Origin: Spirochaetaceae bacterium
Lineage (GTDB): Bacteria > Spirochaetota > Spirochaetia > Treponematales > Breznakiellaceae
Direction: 5' to 3'
Assembly: GCA_031262035.1 (NCBI GenBank)
Contig: JAISIL010000128.1
Coordinates: forward strand, 1 to 37,825
DNA length: 37,825 nt
Position 1 is the first letter of the stretch. Each line of letters starts with the position of its first letter. Below, one piece after another: positions 25,444-37,785 of the stretch. Under the pieces are notes generated by a model. The model saw nothing but the letters and a program-made list of their open reading frames with translations. It searched no databases and was not told the DNA's origin. Position numbers and translations under genes: made by a program.

Positions 25444-26343
25444 ATGGTAGGAAGTTCACCCTTTGCAAAATCAAAAGGAGTCCGAAAGGATTTCTGGATA
25501 GCGATGATATTTATCGCCCCCTGGATTATCGGCACACTGTGGTTCACCGTCGGCCCGATTATCTATTCATTTTACTACTCACTGACTGAATACAAGATTT
25601 TTTCAGCCCCTGAATTTATCGGCTTTAGAAATTACAAAAACTTGTTCGAGGATGCTTTGTTTTGGAGGTCGCTGCAAAACACCTTGTTTATGGTTGCTGT
25701 TGGCGTGCCATTAACATTGATTACCGCCCTTGTTATATCACTCTTACTGAACAGTAAACAATTGCGTAATTTTTCTTTCTTCCGTGTTGCATACTTTTTG
25801 CCGACCCTGGTGCCGCTTATTATCAATTGTATCTTGTGGGTTTGGCTTTTAAACTATGACAATGGTATGATAAATGCTCTGCTCCGCCTCATTGGTATAC
25901 AAGGTCCTTCGTGGTTAGGCGACCCTGGTTGGTCAAAACCCGGCCTCATTTTAATGACCGTCTGGGGCTGCGGTAATGTTATTATCATATTCCTTGCAGG
26001 CTTGCAGGATATACCGGAATCACTTTACGAATCGGCAGACATAGAAGGTGCAAACTTTGTGCAGAAATCACTGCACATCACCATTCCGATGTTATCGCCG
26101 GTTATTCTTTACAATGCAGTAACACTGGTCATCGCAGCATTCCAGCAATTTGCAGAACCCTTTACCATGACCGAAGGCGGCCCGAACCGTTCAACATTGC
26201 TCTACTCACTGTATCTCTACCAAAACGCCTTCCAGTTTATGAAAATGGGCTACGCATCAGCCATGGCATGGATACTCTTAGTAATAGCGCTGGCAGTTAT
26301 TTTCTTACTGTTTAAAGGACAGAAAAAATTAGGGAATGATTAA
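25444..26343 (+). CDS. Carbohydrate ABC transporter permease (MalF/LacF type)
   Basis: A 299-aa permease with six predicted helices and the EAA-type loop ESLYESADIEGANFVQKSLH. The N-terminus FWIAMIFIAPWIIGTLWFTVGPIIYSFYYSLTEY is typical of MalF/UgpA-like partners. GGAGG lies 9 nt before the ATG, 16 bp after the first permease. No ATPase gene follows, so the system probably uses a shared MsmK/UgpC-type ATPase encoded elsewhere (known for CUT1 systems; inferred here). A CACGAAT element begins one base after the stop. Confidence 0.93.
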   Translation: MVGSSPFAKSKGVRKDFWIAMIFIAPWIIGTLWFTVGPIIYSFYYSLTEYKIFSAPEFIGFRNYKNLFEDALFWRSLQNTLFMVAVGVPLTLITALVISLLLNSKQLRNFSFFRVAYFLPTLVPLIINCILWVWLLNYDNGMINALLRLIGIQGPSWLGDPGWSKPGLILMTVWGCGNVIIIFLAGLQDIPESLYESADIEGANFVQKSLHITIPMLSPVILYNAVTLVIAAFQQFAEPFTMTEGGPNRSTLLYSLYLYQNAFQFMKMGYASAMAWILLVIALAVIFLLFKGQKKLGND

Positions 26344-26344
26344 G

Positions 26345-26440
26345 AACCACGAATGGCACGAATCGGCTTCGCCGACACGAATAAGCTGATTGGTAATCAA
26401 AAATTCGTGTGGCCGAAGGCCATTCGTGTTATTCGTGGTT
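26345..26440 (+). repeat. CACGAAT cloverleaf element 5 (full length)
   Basis: Outer arms AACCACGAATGGCACGAAT / ATTCGTGTTATTCGTGGTT, 17 of 19 positions complementary. Left tip CGGC-ttc-GCCG, right tip GGCC-gaa-GGCC. The inner arm ACACGAAT / ATTCGTGT is perfect and contains a further TGATT-ggt-AATCA hairpin. It lies one base after the permease stop and 5 nt before the next Shine-Dalgarno. Confidence 0.9.
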
Positions 26441-26456
26441 AATTATAGGAGACATT

Positions 26457-26918
26457 ATGGACAAACCGATTTTAGGTAACAACATCGTCGTGCAGATTGG
26501 TATACTCTGCCACGATATTGAGCAGACCAAGAAAGATTGGGCGGAATTTCTGGGGGTGGAAGTTCCACCTACCGGAATGACAGGCGAGGCAAAAGACGCC
26601 AAGACTGAGTATTTAGGCAAGCCATCGGCAGCACGGACAAAGCAGGCATTCTTCAGTGTCGGCCCCAATGTGGACATTGAATTGCTTGAGCCGGATAAGG
26701 ATATGAATTCAACCTGGCGGCAAGACCTTGAGAAACAAGGCGAAGGTTTTCACCACATTGCATTCAATGTGAAAAGCATGAAGGATGGCATTGAGGCCAG
26801 CGAAAAAATGGGCTACAAGCTCCTGCAACGCGGCCAATGGGACACCGGCTGTTATGCATATCTGGATGCAAAGAAGCAGTTAAAACTGGTGCTGGAATTG
26901 TTGGAACACTGGGAGTAA
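26457..26918 (+). CDS. VOC-superfamily metalloenzyme 1
   Basis: A 153-aa protein with two beta-alpha-beta-beta-beta repeats. Candidate metal ligands are Gln in VVQIGIL, Glu in IELLEP, His in FHHIAF and Glu in LVLELLE, the order seen in glyoxalase I and methylmalonyl-CoA epimerase (Gln replaces the first His). It is related to VOC 3 below (shared DIE+T-K-W, W-R-D/K-L, GEG-HI-F). VOC enzymes isomerise, epimerise or cleave small metabolites; the substrate here is unknown. The ATG at 26457 follows AGGAGA. The in-frame start at 26409 lies inside repeat element 5 and is rejected. Confidence 0.88.
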   Translation: MDKPILGNNIVVQIGILCHDIEQTKKDWAEFLGVEVPPTGMTGEAKDAKTEYLGKPSAARTKQAFFSVGPNVDIELLEPDKDMNSTWRQDLEKQGEGFHHIAFNVKSMKDGIEASEKMGYKLLQRGQWDTGCYAYLDAKKQLKLVLELLEHWE

Positions 26919-27020
26919 CCACGAATGACACGAATAGGCCTGACGGCCTACACGAATAATCTATGATTAGTAAGTGAAAATTCGTGTGCGCCTTTAGGCG
27001 CATTCGTGATATTCGTGGTT
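26917..27020 (+). repeat. CACGAAT cloverleaf element 6 (full length)
   Basis: The first A of the element is the second base of the VOC 1 stop codon (TAACCACGAA). Left tip AGGCC-tgac-GGCCT, right tip GCGCC-ttta-GGCGC, inner arm ACACGAAT / ATTCGTGT with spacer AATCTATGATTAGTAAGTG. It ends 6 nt before the next Shine-Dalgarno. Confidence 0.9.
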
Positions 27021-27039
27021 AAATTATAGGAGAGATTAT

Positions 27040-27471
27040 ATGGCAAAGATTACAGGTATTGCACACCTTGCGGTTACCGCTAAGGATATGGATAAGTCGC
27101 TTGACTTTTATACAAGGGTTTTGGGTTTCAAAAAAGTGTTTGAAATTCCCAACCCCAAAGACGGTTCCCCCTGGATTGTGTATATCTATGTTGGCGGAAA
27201 TCAATTTATAGAACTGTTTTACGGCGGCGTCAAGCCCTACAGTTTTGATGATGCCGACCGCGGCTGGAACCACATCTGTTTATGTGTTGATGATATTTTT
27301 GCAGTGTGCAAAGACATCGAAGCCCGCGGCTGGACACTCGATGTGCAGCCTAATCAGGGTGTAGACTACAACTACCAGGCATGGCTCAAAGACCCCGACG
27401 GCATCCGCATCGAGTTGATGCAGATAGACCCGAAAAGCCCGCACGCGAAAGCAATAAAGGATAATAATTAA
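27040..27471 (+). CDS. VOC-superfamily metalloenzyme 2
   Basis: A 143-aa glyoxalase-fold protein with a full ligand set: His in IAHLAVT, Glu in FIELFY, His in WNHICLCV and Glu in IRIELMQ. The ending DPDGIRIELMQIDP is the hallmark of lactoylglutathione lyase/glyoxalase-like proteins. It is not a close copy of VOC 1 or VOC 3, so it probably acts on a different step. AGGAGA precedes the ATG. Confidence 0.92.
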   Translation: MAKITGIAHLAVTAKDMDKSLDFYTRVLGFKKVFEIPNPKDGSPWIVYIYVGGNQFIELFYGGVKPYSFDDADRGWNHICLCVDDIFAVCKDIEARGWTLDVQPNQGVDYNYQAWLKDPDGIRIELMQIDPKSPHAKAIKDNN

Positions 27472-27554
27472 CCACGAATGAACACGAATCGGCTTTGCCG
27501 ACACGAATTAAAAATTCGTGTGCGCCTTTAGGCGCATTCGTGATATTCGTGGTT
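27470..27554 (+). repeat. CACGAAT cloverleaf element 7 (shortened centre)
   Basis: It begins within the VOC 2 stop codon (TAACCACGAA). Left tip CGGC-ttt-GCCG, right tip GCGCC-ttta-GGCGC. The inner arm ACACGAAT / ATTCGTGT has a spacer of only a few A/T bases, so the centre is a short hairpin. Confidence 0.9.
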
Positions 27555-27571
27555 GAATGAGGAGTAAGATT

Positions 27572-28081
27572 ATGACTATAGGAACAACAAAATTATGTCA
27601 CATAGCAATATTGGTGAACGACATTGAAAAGACAATCAAGAACTGGGAGCAGGTGTTGGGTATCAAGATTGATGAACCGCGCTATATTCCCCCCAAGGAT
27701 GAGGTGCCCTGTTTTACCGACGGGAAACTCGGTGATTATTCTGATGTTCGTTTAACAAACATCATACTGGATAATGTGCAAATTGAACTTGCAGAACCCG
27801 GCAAAAACCCCGGCCCCTGGCGCGACAAACTCGACCGTGACGGCGAGGGTGTGCAGCACATCAGCTTCATCGTCCCCGACAGGAAAAAGGCAATGCAGGC
27901 CCTGGATGAAGTTGGGGCGCCAAAGCCCTACCACATCGGCTACTGGCCCGGCGGCACCTATTCCTTCACCGATGCAGTGAAACAGCTTGGCGTCGAAATA
28001 AACATCAAAACCGACGATGACAACACGGGTAAGCGGGCACGATTACTGAGCGATCCTGAGTATCATAAAGAAGATTTATAA
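27572..28081 (+). CDS. VOC-superfamily metalloenzyme 3
   Basis: A 169-aa glyoxalase-fold protein. Metal ligands: His in LCHIAIL, Glu in QIELAEP, His in VQHISFIV and Glu in GVEINIK. It resembles VOC 1 in layout (DIEKTIKNWEQVLG, PWRDKLDRDGEG), so these two may be ancient duplicates or a heteromeric pair (inference). The C-terminal Lys/Asp-rich tail is extra. GAGG-AG lies 8 nt before the ATG at 27572; an upstream ATG at 27557 begins in the Shine-Dalgarno region and is rejected. Confidence 0.9.
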   Translation: MTIGTTKLCHIAILVNDIEKTIKNWEQVLGIKIDEPRYIPPKDEVPCFTDGKLGDYSDVRLTNIILDNVQIELAEPGKNPGPWRDKLDRDGEGVQHISFIVPDRKKAMQALDEVGAPKPYHIGYWPGGTYSFTDAVKQLGVEINIKTDDDNTGKRARLLSDPEYHKEDL

Positions 28082-28182
28082 ACCACAGATAACGCAGATG
28101 CACCTTCGGTGCACGCGGATAAAAATAAAAATTATAATATTATCCGCGTAGGGCTTTAGCCCTATCTGTGTTATCCGTGGTT
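28081..28182 (+). repeat. CGCAGAT-type cloverleaf element 8 (same plan, other sequence)
   Basis: Outer arms AACCACAGATAACGCAGAT / ATCTGTGTTATCCGTGGTT. Left tip GCACC-ttc-GGTGC, right tip AGGGC-ttta-GCCCT. The inner arm ACGCGGATAA / TTATCCGCGT is a perfect 10-bp stem around an A/T spacer. The design equals that of the CACGAAT elements, but the repeated unit is CGCAGAT/CGCGGAT. It begins at the VOC 3 stop. Confidence 0.9.
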
Positions 28183-28202
28183 GTATTAGAAGGAATAACG
28201 CA

Positions 28203-29048
28203 ATGCTATTAGGTGGAAATGTATTTATAGACGGCCACGACCCCGATGCCTATGTTGCGGCCCATGTGAAAAAGGGCTACAAGGCTGCTTATTGCCCGGA
28301 CTGGCTCAACACTGATACGGACAAGGTTGCATGTAAGGCCTTTACCGATGCCTTAAACAAAAACAACATCGTCCTTGCCGAGGTAGGCATTTGGCGGAAT
28401 GTGCTGTCGAAAGACAGTGCCGAAGCAAAGGCGGCCATTGATTATTCAATTCGCCGTTTAACTACAGCAGAAGAACTCGGTGCCAGGTGTGCAGTAAATG
28501 TAATAGGCTCATGGTCTGAAGAATCCTGGGATGGGGCAAGTGCATTAAACTATACACAAGACTTTTTCGATGCGGCTGTTGTTGCAGCACGGCAGGTGAT
28601 TGATGCAGTGAAGCCGGTGCGCACAAAAATGACCTTTGAACTTATGCCCAATGCCTTTATCGACAGTGCCGAGGAGTATATGCGCCTTTTGAAGGCCATT
28701 GACCGACCTGCAGCCGGTATTCATTTGGACCCGACAAACTGTATCGCAAGCCCTCGTTTGCTCTACAATAATGCCGAATTCTTCAAAAAAGAGTTTGCCA
28801 TTTTAGGCGATGCCATTTGTTCAATCCACATCAAGGACATAGATTTAGACAATGACACATTTACTGTGCATTTAACTGAACGCATCATCGGCGAAGGTGC
28901 AATAGATTACATCAATTTACTGCACTTAATTGACAAACTGCCACAGGATACACCGGTTATGCTGGAACACCTGGCAACAGAAGCGGAGTATGACAAGGCA
29001 GCAGAAAATTTCAGAAGCCTGGCAAAACAGGCAGGAATAAATATGTAA
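28203..29048 (+). CDS. Sugar phosphate isomerase/epimerase-like TIM barrel
   Basis: A 281-aa AP-endonuclease-2/xylose-isomerase-like TIM barrel. Expected metal ligands are in strand ends: Glu in TFELMP, Asp in HLDPTN, His in SIHIKDI and Glu in MLEHLA. Such enzymes epimerise, isomerise or dehydrate keto-sugars, and frequently partner with Gfo/Idh/MocA oxidoreductases as here. The N-terminus starts directly with MLLGGNVFIDG. AGAAGGA lies 9 nt before the ATG. The neighbouring VOC enzymes and dehydrogenases indicate a step in degrading the imported sugar; the substrate cannot be stated. Confidence 0.9.
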   Translation: MLLGGNVFIDGHDPDAYVAAHVKKGYKAAYCPDWLNTDTDKVACKAFTDALNKNNIVLAEVGIWRNVLSKDSAEAKAAIDYSIRRLTTAEELGARCAVNVIGSWSEESWDGASALNYTQDFFDAAVVAARQVIDAVKPVRTKMTFELMPNAFIDSAEEYMRLLKAIDRPAAGIHLDPTNCIASPRLLYNNAEFFKKEFAILGDAICSIHIKDIDLDNDTFTVHLTERIIGEGAIDYINLLHLIDKLPQDTPVMLEHLATEAEYDKAAENFRSLAKQAGINM

Positions 29049-29115
29049 CCATTGCAGATACGGCCTACAGGCCGTAGGGGCGGGGCGTGCCCCGCCCTTG
29101 CATATTTGCATGGTT
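29047..29115 (+). repeat. Structured element 9, GGGGCGGGGC type
   Basis: It starts inside the stop codon (TAACCATTGCA). Outer arms AACCAT-GCA / TGCATGGTT, left tip CGGCCT-ac-AGGCCG, right tip GGGCGGGGC-gt-GCCCCGCCC (perfect 9-bp stem). There is no separate central arm, so it folds as a three-way junction. Sequence unrelated to the CACGAAT family. Confidence 0.85.
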
Positions 29116-29145
29116 ATAAGGTTAATAAATAGAGGAGAAATATTT

Positions 29146-29823
29146 ATGCGTATATTAGTAGTAGGCGCAGCGCAGGGACTAGGCTTAATCTTTGCAAAAC
29201 ATTGCGCACAAAAAGGCAACACCGTGTATGCAGGCTATGTAGGTAGTTTTCCTGCACAGGATACAAACATTATCCCCATCGAAATGGATGTTACAAACGA
29301 AGATATGATAAAAAAAGTTGCAGCAGAGATTGCCAAAGACGGTGAACTCGATGCAATATTGGTAACTGCCGGTGTGCTTACAAACAGTGATAGGGAACTT
29401 TCCATTACCGAATGCAGCATAGCGGATTTACGAAAAGCGCTGGATGTAAATGTAGCGGGTGTCGCCATTGTGATTAAGCACTTTGAAAAGTCGGTAAAAA
29501 AAGGAGGTTTTTTTATCATTCTTACTTCAGAAGCAGGCAGCATGACAAACATCGGCACCCGCTACCCGGCCTATTCGATAACAAAAGCAGGCGAGAACAA
29601 ACTCGTAGCCATCTTCCGTGCAACCATGGAAGAAAAAGGCTACCCCTACAACATCTACGCCATGCACCCCGGCCGCATGAACACCGAAATGGGTAGAAAC
29701 GATGCACAGATAGAACCAACCGTAACAGCGGAAAGTATTTACCAGATATTCACTGGCGAAAAAAAGATACCGCCAGAAAATGGCTGGTTCGTCAATTATT
29801 TGGGCGATAAGATGGAGATTTGA
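29146..29823 (+). CDS. Short-chain dehydrogenase/reductase
   Basis: A 225-aa NAD(P)-dependent oxidoreductase. The Rossmann motif GAAQGLG is at residues 7-13 and the catalytic triad is visible as Ser in ILTSEAG and Tyr-Lys in YSITKAG; NVAG (about residue 105) is the conserved Asn region. The C-terminus, with MHPGRMNTEMG, shapes the substrate pocket. It probably oxidises or reduces a sugar intermediate of the operon. The ATG at 29146 follows GAGGAG; the ATG at 29098 overlaps element 9 and is rejected. Confidence 0.92.
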   Translation: MRILVVGAAQGLGLIFAKHCAQKGNTVYAGYVGSFPAQDTNIIPIEMDVTNEDMIKKVAAEIAKDGELDAILVTAGVLTNSDRELSITECSIADLRKALDVNVAGVAIVIKHFEKSVKKGGFFIILTSEAGSMTNIGTRYPAYSITKAGENKLVAIFRATMEEKGYPYNIYAMHPGRMNTEMGRNDAQIEPTVTAESIYQIFTGEKKIPPENGWFVNYLGDKMEI

Positions 29824-29825
29824 AT

Positions 29826-29879
29826 CTCACGCAAAGCCGCAAAGAACCTTATCTTGGCGTCTTTGCGCCTTTGCGTGAG
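29826..29879 (+). repeat. CGCAAAG-type inverted repeat element 10
   Basis: CTCACGCAAAGCCGCAAAG on the left pairs with CTTTGCGCCTTTGCGTGAG on the right (18 of 19 positions) around a 16-nt loop. Like the other families it is made of a short unit (GCAAAG) repeated every 8 bp in each arm. It starts two bases after the SDR stop and ends shortly before the next Shine-Dalgarno. Confidence 0.88.
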
Positions 29880-29897
29880 CTATTAATAGGAGTAATC

Positions 29898-30941
29898 ATG
29901 AACATAGGTGTAGTAGGCGCGGGAAATATTTCCGGCATATATCTAAAGAACCTGAGCGGCATGTTTGCCGACAAAATCACATTAAAGGCCATTGCCGACG
30001 GTTTCCCCGAGAAGGCAAAAGAGGCGGCGGAAAAGTATCGCATCGACTTTGAACCGAGTGTAGAATCTCTGCTCGCCCGTAAGGATATAGACATCGTGCT
30101 TAATATCACCAATCCTGCATCCCATTACCCGGTTGCCCGTGCTGCATTAGAGGCCGGTAAGCATGTCTACAATGAAAAGCCTCTATGCACCACCCTGGAA
30201 GACGGCAAGGCTCTGATGAAGCTGGCAAACGAAAAGGGCCTCCGGGTCGGTTCTGCAACAGACACCTTCCTTGGCGCCGGTGTGCAAACGGCAAAGAAGC
30301 TGCTTCAGGAAGGGGCAATCGGCAAACCCGTAGCCGCTGTGTTTTTTATGATGAACCACGGCCCGGAAAGCTGGCACCCAAACCCGGACTTTTACTACGA
30401 TATTGGCGGCGGCCCGGTCCTTGATATGGCCCCCTACTATTTAAACACCTTGTTTGAGTTGCTGGGAAAAGTTACCTCAGTAAAAAGTGAAGCATCAAAG
30501 AGTTTTGATACACGAACAGCAAAAGACGGTCATAGCATCAGTGTTAAAACTCCTACACATATACAATCTGTGCTGGATTTTAATGATGGCACAAATGCTG
30601 TTAAGGCAACTGCAATCTTCAGTTTTGATATATGGACGCATTCACTGCCTCATATTGAAATTTACGGCAGCGAAGGTTCCCTGCAAATAGGCGACCCCAA
30701 TTGGTTCACCTCGCCGGTTAAAATCTGCAAAAAAGAAGACATAAAAGACGGCAGTGCATCATGGCATGATGTAGTGCTCACCGCCCCCGCCTATGCAAAA
30801 CCCGAATGGCTTACCAACGACAACTGGCGCGGAATCGGCCTCACCGACATGGCATTGTCGATAGAGCAGGACAAGCCCCATCGCGCCAGCGGCGACCGCG
30901 GCCTGCATGCATTAGATGTGATGACAAAGATGTTGAATTAA
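29898..30941 (+). CDS. Gfo/Idh/MocA-family oxidoreductase
   Basis: A 347-aa NAD(P)-dependent sugar dehydrogenase. The N-terminal Rossmann domain has GVVGAGNIS (residues 3-11), then the EKP cofactor motif in NEKPLCTT (about residue 95). The C-terminal beta-sheet domain has GGGPVLDMAPYYLNTLFELLG, including the conserved DxxxYY/H region used in catalysis. Members often oxidise sugars at C3 or C2 to feed isomerases or lyases such as the TIM barrel upstream. The ATG at 29898 follows AGGAG; the longer frame from 29820 runs through element 10. It is last in the operon, and element 11 begins at its stop codon. Confidence 0.94.
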   Translation: MNIGVVGAGNISGIYLKNLSGMFADKITLKAIADGFPEKAKEAAEKYRIDFEPSVESLLARKDIDIVLNITNPASHYPVARAALEAGKHVYNEKPLCTTLEDGKALMKLANEKGLRVGSATDTFLGAGVQTAKKLLQEGAIGKPVAAVFFMMNHGPESWHPNPDFYYDIGGGPVLDMAPYYLNTLFELLGKVTSVKSEASKSFDTRTAKDGHSISVKTPTHIQSVLDFNDGTNAVKATAIFSFDIWTHSLPHIEIYGSEGSLQIGDPNWFTSPVKICKKEDIKDGSASWHDVVLTAPAYAKPEWLTNDNWRGIGLTDMALSIEQDKPHRASGDRGLHALDVMTKMLN

Positions 30942-30995
30942 CCACGAATAGATTATTCGTGTCCGCCGTAGGCGGATTCGTGTGTATTCGTGGTT
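30940..30995. repeat. CACGAAT element 11 (short form)
   Basis: It begins at the TAACCACGAA stop of the oxidoreductase gene. Outer stem AACCACGAAT / ATTCGTGGTT and one tip, TCCGCC-gta-GGCGGA. It lies between converging genes (oxidoreductase and MATE exporter), a likely terminator for both. Confidence 0.85.
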
Positions 30996-34657: not shown

Positions 34658-34681
34658 TGCAGGGTAAAATCGTTTAACTTT
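34658..34681 (-). promoter_or_regulatory. Shared 24-bp upstream block, copy 1
   Basis: On the minus strand it reads AAAGTTAAACGATTTTACCC then TGCA. It matches the block at 37656-37679 at 22 of 24 positions, both differences being transitions. In both cases it ends exactly 17 bp before the -35 box. Confidence 0.6.
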
Positions 34682-34686
34682 ATAGT

Positions 34687-34785
34687 AACCACGAATAACA
34701 CGAATGGCCTTCGGCCACACGAATTTTTGCTTACTTATCATAGAATATTCGTGTCGGCGAAGCCGATTCGTGTATATTCGTGGTA
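34687..34785 (-). repeat. CACGAAT cloverleaf element 12 (minus orientation)
   Basis: Read on the minus strand: left tip CGGC-ttc-GCCG, right tip GGCC-gaa-GGCC, inner arm ACACGAAT / ATTCGTGT and a spacer close to that of element 13. It follows the alpha-L-fucosidase stop by 8 bp and lies upstream of the toxin-antitoxin promoter. Confidence 0.88.
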
Positions 34786-37655: not shown

Positions 37656-37679
37656 TGCAGGGCAAAATCATTTAACTTT
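37656..37679 (-). promoter_or_regulatory. Shared 24-bp upstream block, copy 2
   Basis: On the minus strand AAAGTTAAATGATTTTGCCC then TGCA. It lies exactly 17 bp upstream of the -35 box, like the copy at 34658-34681. Confidence 0.6.
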
Positions 37680-37694
37680 GAAATCATAAAAAAC

Positions 37695-37785
37695 AACCAC
37701 GAATATACACGAATCGGCTTCGCCGACACGAATAATCTATGTTAAGTAAGCAAAAATTCGTGTGGCCAAAGGCCATTCGTGTTAT
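37695..37785 (+). repeat. CACGAAT cloverleaf element 13 (right end broken)
   Basis: Left tip CGGC-ttc-GCCG, right tip GGCC-aaa-GGCC, inner arm ACACGAAT / ATTCGTGT. The right outer arm stops after ATTCGTGTTAT and continues as CCTATG instead of TCGTGGTT, so the outer stem is incomplete. The last 40 bases of the window hold nothing else I can identify. Confidence 0.8.

Follow-up and report, generated by a model that had tools for sequence, protein, structure and literature searches.

Repetitive extragenic palindromes (REPs) are found no more than about 20 bp from the 3' end of a gene, where neighbouring genes are co-directional or convergent, and those of the GTAG type supply TAG stop codons (PMC3733652). 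When located near stop codons, the REPs of E. coli lower translation, according to work by Liang et al. 2015 that is cited in PMC12306157. The TAACTGA repeats of Beggiatoaceae have a patchy distribution in Gammaproteobacteria, Cyanobacteria and Bacteroidetes, for which horizontal spread is suspected, with no mechanism known (PMC4679880).

The stretch of DNA analysed here (the window, 37,825 nucleotides from a Spirochaetaceae bacterium) contains an operon in which six consecutive gaps between genes are filled by inverted repeats. We consider it likely that these six gaps were filled by insertion of REP-like iteron palindromes, dispersed non-coding repeats that have multiplied in this lineage. 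The genes concerned, all on the + strand, are perm2, an ABC transporter permease (25444..26343, PF00528), three genes for glyoxalase-fold proteins, namely VOC1 (26457..26918, PF13669), VOC2 (27040..27471, PF00903) and VOC3 (27572..28081, PF13669), a xylose-isomerase-like TIM barrel (28203..29048, PF01261), a short-chain dehydrogenase (SDR; 29146..29823, PF00106) and a Gfo/Idh/MocA oxidoreductase (29898..30941, PF01408). The gaps from perm2 to the Gfo/Idh/MocA gene measure 113, 121, 100, 121, 97 and 74 bp, exactly the lengths given in the original prediction, and its statement that every one of them holds one inverted repeat was confirmed by coordinates, folding energies and shuffles. A Shine-Dalgarno sequence follows just 3' of each gap element, between co-directional genes. 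No filler element was present in the upstream gaps of the same operon, SBP-perm1 (19 bp) and perm1-perm2 (16 bp).

The elements, whose coordinates carry no strand, are of four kinds. Gaps 1 to 3 hold CACGAAT iteron palindromes: element 1 (26345..26440, z -9.0), between perm2 and VOC1, has the tips CGGCTTCGCCG and GGCCGAAGGCC, while element 2 (26917..27020, z -9.5), between VOC1 and VOC2, and element 3 (27470..27554, z -7.8), between VOC2 and VOC3, provide the AA that completes the TAA stop codons of VOC1 and VOC2, respectively; the right 44 nt of element 2 are identical in element 3. Element 4 (28081..28182, z -10.3), in the gap between VOC3 and the TIM barrel, is an iteron palindrome built of CACAGAT/CGCAGAT/CGCGGAT and belongs to a low-copy family with a clear relative at C45:6503 of genome G000. 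In gap 5, between the TIM barrel and SDR, the AACCAT..ATGGTT arms of element 5 (29047..29115, z -6.1) enclose the GGGGCGGGGC hairpin; besides its arms, the element has a small hairpin and a GGGCGGGGC/GCCCCGCCC hairpin preceded by GTAG. Element 6 (29826..29879, z -7.9), in the gap between SDR and the Gfo/Idh/MocA gene, is an iteron palindrome of the CGCAAAG kind, as predicted. A seventh element, absent from the original count, is a short CACGAAT palindrome (30940..30995, z -6.3) located 3' of the Gfo gene, where the genes are convergent, and its AA completes the TAA stop codon.

The six gap elements fold strongly (z -6.0 to -10.3; RNA energies -31 to -52 kcal/mol), and for each of them none of 200 shuffles folded as well. 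The four-way design proposed for the first four elements was recovered as the fold of elements 3 and 4, whereas elements 1 and 2 favour a single long hairpin with the two tips paired together, the four-way form being only an alternative; the three-way junction proposed for element 5 was obtained by folding. A scan of the window against Rfam 15 yielded no match above the gathering score, and a terminator consensus scan of the region returned 13 sites against 10.4 expected, with two weak matches inside elements 1 and 4.

The original prediction suggested that these hairpins may be a device of the operon, kept because they divide a single mRNA into cistrons each with its own stability or translation, a reading favored by the location of the elements between co-directional genes with a Shine-Dalgarno sequence just after, and by their strong folds. 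It had proposed a comparison with the same operon in relatives, and this comparison spoke against it. In genomes G013, G072, G044, G059 and G079, the VOC genes adjoin the TIM-barrel gene, and the gaps there, of -4 to 37 bp, contain no element, the empty sites being inferred from gap length, not base by base, at about 60-75% protein identity; the VOC3-TIM gap of G062 is 27 bp. Because relatives keep the VOC-TIM order with such short, element-free gaps, the operon elements are best seen as lineage-specific insertions. In relatives, too, the gap between perm2 and VOC1 is long (130-197 bp), and in some of them it contains inverted repeats of their own. No syntenic relative was found for comparison of gaps 5 and 6, and the relatives of a second operon (C85, thiolase/acetyl-CoA hydrolase) were not syntenic.

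All four kinds of element belong to repeat families that are dispersed in the genome, which is of a termite-gut Treponema type. The sequences of gaps 1 and 2 had 87 matches across the genome, the main family, CACGAAT, accounted for 140 half-sites (64+76) against 0 in the control, the kind of element 5 gave 17 strand matches genome-wide against 0 in the control, and 61 arms of the CGCAAAG kind were detected. The same elements are found at more than 100 other, unrelated places in the genome, which also argues against a device specific to this operon.

The statistics of placement and runs rest on 721 kb from contigs chosen as element carriers, in which 89 CACGAAT cores were identified, mostly with 56-119 bp per element; among the cores placeable between called genes, 1 of 74 lay inside a gene. 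Core copies without the terminal inverted repeats (TIRs) of a MITE are here called naked, and all operon copies are of this type. Naked cores were located in tandem (34), convergent (6) or divergent (6) gaps, with 3'-facing ends at 15 nt or less from a stop codon in 41 of 46. Residual gaps of 9-36 bp were left by 21 of 34 tandem copies, compared with 60 of 346 element-free gaps (P 8e-8). Clustering at the stop codon within a given gap was not significant alone (P 0.17), and follows from the elements sitting in short gaps. No other run of tandem gaps filled by hairpins in the 721-kb sample is as long as these six (the next longest is 3), and a run of at least six had P 0.004-0.016 by permutation of gap labels with a folding-based hairpin test, in line with an operon device. 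However, rare tips were shared by 9 of 32 near pairs, against 1.1 expected. Copying from one gap to the next, probably through recombination or local transposition, explains the shared half-elements, such as the 44 nt common to elements 2 and 3; it homogenises neighbour copies and can alone produce runs. An operon device is in our view unlikely.

The elements had been taken as unrelated sequences in which shape, not sequence, was kept, but the kinds of elements 1, 4 and 6 each consist of repeated copies of a heptamer that resembles C-R-C-R-R-A-K. Each arm carries two or three heptamer copies spaced 8-10 bp, with inverted copies in the other arm and, in this genome, small tip hairpins often inserted between iterons 2 and 3. 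In pairwise comparison of copies, the heptamers differed by 2%, the spacers by about 40% and the loops by 48%, and left and right spacers were not complementary (14/77 matching, against 16.7 expected by chance). Sequence is therefore what is kept in the arms. Only the small tip hairpins are kept as shape, as the earlier claim would have it: among 57 variants, pairing was maintained through compensatory changes and exchanges of whole stems. The conserved heptamers could also reflect a selected function.

It is about as improbable as an operon device that the heptamer iterons are DNA-level sites at which a nucleoid or replication protein recognises the duplex, with the palindrome as binding architecture. 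Conservation of the heptamer sequence does extend far past the needs of pairing, the iterons recur about once per helical turn, at a spacing of 9-10 bp, between non-complementary spacers, and three-iteron arrays without a second arm occur in other genomes. The covariation of the tips nevertheless preserves hairpins, which would not be required for duplex binding, the elements lie beside stop codons and not at promoters or origins, and no binding protein is known.

A subset of CACGAAT copies lies inside a MITE having TIRs of 18-22 bp and an intact unit of about 161-168 bp. Both TIRs were present in 12 copies, 7 of which were flanked by matching 9-10 bp TSDs (up to one mismatch), and one TIR in 21 copies. 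These copies would suit an origin of all elements from the TIR-bearing MITE, the naked ones having lost their TIRs by decay. The operon copies had no TIR within 60 bp. In the naked cores the heptamers were almost free of mismatches (0.43 per element; MITE copies, 0.27), yet these cores showed no trace of a TIR, more diverse tips and a median residual gap of 24.5 bp, against 130 bp for MITE copies, so that such an origin appears quite doubtful. Naked cores showed no TSD enrichment, a long target duplication was not supported (permutation P 0.06), and the search for an enzyme mobilising naked copies gave none. Two candidates for the autonomous partner of the MITE were rejected: L084 9851, which is not followed by a transposase, and the sole, degenerate DDE_Tnp_1 match (C209), which is interrupted by an in-frame stop and is not flanked by a MITE-like TIR.

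No Y1_Tnp (RAYT) match was obtained in G000, a 99%-complete genome. The congeners G027, G068 and G119 have 33-97 Y1 genes each and no CACGAAT elements, and most of six Y1 copies examined in G097 were flanked by GGTCTGTCCCC / GGGGACAGACC, none by CACGAAT. GTAG/CTAC occurred near 8 of 178 CACGAAT ends and CGTC/GACG near 0 of 178, hence without enrichment of these tags; in the operon, GTAG precedes the hairpin of gap 5 only. Mobilisation as classical REPs by a RAYT (Y1 tyrosine transposase), despite similar palindromy and gene-end placement (PMC3733652), is thereby largely refuted and highly improbable.

Across genera, CACGAAT elements were patchily distributed, with 140 and 112 matches in two genera, 0-18 in the other sampled genera and 0 in the sampled congeners of G097. 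BLAST of full elements against plasmid and phage collections gave no match; only consensus arms without tips retrieved relatives. The same heptamer families were found in spirochaetes of another class, on one plasmid each from Chromatiaceae, cyanobacteria and Bacteroidota, and in metagenomic viral contigs, in which three-iteron arrays were few. Literature searches with the element sequences returned only chance matches in unrelated papers. We tentatively suggest, with somewhat less than even confidence, that heptamer-iteron palindromes may form a cross-phylum superfamily that spreads without RAYT, passes from one distant lineage to another and has repeatedly settled in operon gaps as a default intercistronic element.

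If the gap fillers are inserted REP-like palindromes, insertion would occur just 3' of stop codons, the element often supplying TAA and leaving the next Shine-Dalgarno sequence intact, and persistence in short operon gaps may reflect the least harmful placement. A subset of copies would travel inside the MITE. A strong hairpin within about 15 nt of the stop codon probably acts on mRNA in the manner of E. coli REPs and, judging from the REP literature, would shield the cistron upstream of it against 3' decay, slow the last ribosomes on that cistron, or both. By this analogy, the 3' hairpins likely protect or dampen the upstream cistron, and effects of each inserted copy on mRNA stability or translation are possible. 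A seemingly designed operon feature can thus arise by repeated insertion of a repeat, and the same operon with and without hairpins offers a natural test set for the effects of intercistronic hairpins on expression. The elements define a class of REP-like repeats in which the heptamers are conserved, the tips covary and are exchangeable, and no RAYT is detectable. The mobiliser of RAYT-less REPs becomes approachable by comparing species rich in elements with others of the same family that lack them, such as G097 and its congeners.

Compared with known systems, the genomic subset with TIRs and TSDs corresponds to a MITE, unlike most copies, those of the operon included, which lack such ends; no intact partner transposase was found. 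Like the TAACTGA repeats of Beggiatoaceae, the elements are intergenic arrays of one heptamer with patchy taxonomic spread (PMC4679880). TAACTGA repeats, however, are direct, mostly a few nt upstream of start codons and without palindrome or hairpin (PMC4679880), whereas the present heptamers (CACGAAT, CGCAAAG and others) are inverted and located at stop codons. Like the E. coli REPs described in PMC12306157, the elements place a strong hairpin fewer than 16 nt past the stop codon, although the sequence is unrelated and the translation effect is known from E. coli. Repeated heptamers, non-complementary spacers and exchangeable tip hairpins set the elements apart from REPs, as do a GTAG/CGTC tag that is not characteristic (the gap-5 hairpin excepted) and the lack of a RAYT detected in the genome. 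As with REP/BIME/REPIN sequences (PMC3733652), they are dispersed, intergenic, high-copy palindromes with several families per genome and pairs in opposite orientation, their termini supply stop codons and they mark the ends of co-directional or convergent genes. In the broad sense of REP, the CACGAAT elements are many-copied, intergenic, palindromic and near stop codons.

The operon encodes, in order, an ABC solute-binding protein, two permeases, three VOC (glyoxalase-fold) proteins, a xylose-isomerase-like TIM barrel, a short-chain dehydrogenase and a Gfo/Idh/MocA oxidoreductase. Between the second permease gene (perm2) and the Gfo/Idh/MocA gene lie six gaps with exact lengths of 113, 121, 100, 121, 97 and 74 bp, each containing an inverted repeat (elements 1 to 6), as the original prediction had stated, and a seventh element lies 3' of the Gfo/Idh/MocA gene (30940-30995). 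All gap elements folded with z-scores of -6.0 to -10.3, unequalled by any of 200 shuffles. The four-way junction proposed for elements 1 to 4 was the predicted fold of elements 3 and 4, but elements 1 and 2 favored one long hairpin with their two tips (small hairpins between heptamers 2 and 3) paired to each other; folding agreed with the three-way junction proposed for element 5. The run of six hairpin-filled gaps was the longest in a 721-kb sample of element-carrying contigs from the same genome, with genes called by a simple codon-usage caller written for this analysis (runner-up, three; P 0.004-0.016, gap-label permutation).

The gap elements are members of dispersed repeat families. Because many contigs of this draft genome (G000; 215 contigs) end within repeats, all counts are lower bounds, and contig breaks make the non-redundant number of elements uncertain: DNA of gaps 1-2 gave 87 matches, the CACGAAT double heptamer 64+76 (none for the reversed-pattern control), the triple CGCAAAG array 61 (none in its control) and the gap-5 hairpin 17. 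The gap-4 family was rare; a clear relative lies at C45:6503.

Presence of the elements is lineage-specific. The window's assembly groups with a family of small genomes, presumably termite-gut treponemes. Among 150 family genomes the CACGAAT pattern was abundant only in G000 (140) and G097 (112), two others having 12 and 18 and the remainder 0-6; none occurred in the sampled congeners of G097. The triple CGCAAAG array was missing from nearly all sampled spirochaetes, yet present in family f33 of another class. The order perm2-VOC1-VOC2-VOC3-TIM was kept in G013, G072 and G044, VOC2-VOC3-TIM in G059 and G079, and VOC3-TIM in G062. In these distant relatives the VOC1-VOC2 (26, 37 and 11 bp), VOC2-VOC3 (3, -1, 17, -4 and 7 bp) and VOC3-TIM gaps (1, -4, 1, 1, 7 and 27 bp) were all element-free, so the same-operon comparison proposed with the original prediction found shared gene order without the elements. 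The relatives' perm2-VOC1 gap was longer (130-197 bp), of its own differing sequence with inverted repeats in some, and no syntenic counterpart of gaps 5 and 6 was found among the relatives compared.

The 89 parsed CACGAAT palindromes (cores) follow the plan AACCACGAAT-nn-CACGAAT-tip-ACACGAAT-loop-ATTCGTGT-tip-ATTCGTG-nn-ATTCGTGGTT. Divergence between copies was 2% for the heptamers (a somewhat low figure, since the parse tolerates no more than one mismatch in each), about 40% for the spacers and 48% for the loop; left and right spacers were complementary at chance level (14/77, expected 16.7). Tips occurred in 57 variants and covaried: a stem of at least 4 pairs was present in 86% of tips of at least 9 nt (13% of shuffles), and 12-nt tips were Watson-Crick at 94% of pair positions (67% with halves permuted). 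With heptamers near-invariant, spacers non-complementary and pairing retained across tip variants, the arms are thus conserved as sequence and the tips as shape; the claim that shape rather than sequence is kept holds for the tips only. Other kinds in G000 (CGCAAAG, CGCGAAT, CGCGAAC, CGCGGAG, CACAGAT and others) follow the same iterated plan, and the gap-4 family has its tips at the same position. Their heptamers appear close to C-R-C-R-R-A-K, a consensus read off the listed heptamers with no statistical test; given the common plan, the kinds are therefore variants of one theme, not the unrelated sequences originally supposed. An operon-specific shape code is likewise not borne out, in view of the dispersed families, the element-free relatives and arms kept as sequence.

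Other palindromes were also observed. AAGTAGG arrays (CTTCCTACTTCC on the opposite arm), also heptamer-based, lie at L059 10288, L073 474 and L090 6499, and a further dispersed family of GTGGTCTCGACAAGCTCGACCACCG type at L064 18040-18092, L065 2865-2923, L069 4567-4658, L074 4558-4605, L080 19155-19245, L084 17168-17211 and L089 14875-14938. G097 carries tip-less CACGAAT units in multi-unit rows (L096, L098, L101, L105; up to 642 bp in L098), and some of its arrays are one-armed three-iteron direct repeats. IMG/VR viral contigs (L193-L207, e.g. L194, L202, L204) carry several such one-armed arrays, some directly adjoining genes, 5' or 3'. It is possible that the half-element stands as an independent unit and that phages serve as a vehicle.

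A subset of the cores is MITE-borne: 12 had both terminal inverted repeats (TIR, CAGGGCAAAATCATTTAA), 21 had one and 56 were naked. The two-ended copies, with target duplications of 9-10 bp in 7/12, constitute a MITE of 161-168 bp if intact with the core in its middle, present in the window (34660-34785, 37658-37784) and at many loci (e.g. L056 10103-10265, L060 2333-2494). G000 contains 146 TIR-like sites; no intact partner transposase was found in it. Also present in the sample, in nine near-identical copies, is a repeat unrelated to this MITE, ~120-140 bp long and ending in CAGGACAATCTTTTGT..ACAAAAGATTGTCCTG, which looks like another MITE (L056 9039-9165; L058 14318-14448 and 19286-19416; L070 5674-5811; L072 16334-16451; L078 17987-18123; L080 272-389; L088 11228-11358; L090 8282-8419).

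Naked cores were placed at gene ends, 34 between tandem genes, 6 between convergent and 6 between divergent ones, with 3'-facing ends at most 15 nt from a stop codon in 41/46; the element often contributes the TAA stop itself. Tandem copies were concentrated in residual gaps of 9-36 bp (21/34 versus 60/346 element-free gaps, P 8e-8), which is just the Shine-Dalgarno region; clustering at the stop codon inside a given gap was not significant beyond this short-gap preference. Neighbors resemble each other: 9/32 element pairs less than 5 kb apart had rare tips in common (1.1 expected), and the right halves of elements 2 and 3 are identical over 44 nt, so neighboring elements appear to have been copied from one another. 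Such local copying would be a simple source of element runs. Its clearest apparent case is a thiolase/acetyl-CoA hydrolase gene pair (L059 15208-19025; contig C85 of G000, 35208-39025), around which four CACGAAT elements within 4 kb have in common one 24-nt tip absent elsewhere in the parsed sample.

A RAYT as mobilizer of the CACGAAT elements was rejected, none being detected in G000 and RAYTs being abundant in G097 congeners without these elements. G097, G027, G068 and G119 (genus g28) carry 33-97 copies per genome of a Y1 (IS200-like) transposase gene, an unusually large RAYT-like expansion; in G097 most are flanked by GGTCTGTCCCC / GGGGACAGACC repeats.

The gap elements are best read as REP-like repeats of a RAYT-less variety built from heptamers, which would have filled the operon gaps through insertion and local copying. 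By analogy with E. coli REPs, for which an effect is reported when they lie <16 nt from a stop codon (Liang et al. 2015, cited in PMC12306157), each transcribed hairpin would hinder degradation of the upstream cistron by 3' exonucleases, slow terminating ribosomes, or do both. REPs of other bacteria lie mostly 3' of genes, <20 bp from their 3' ends, and GTAG REPs contribute TAG stops (PMC3733652), a behavior matched by the naked cores.
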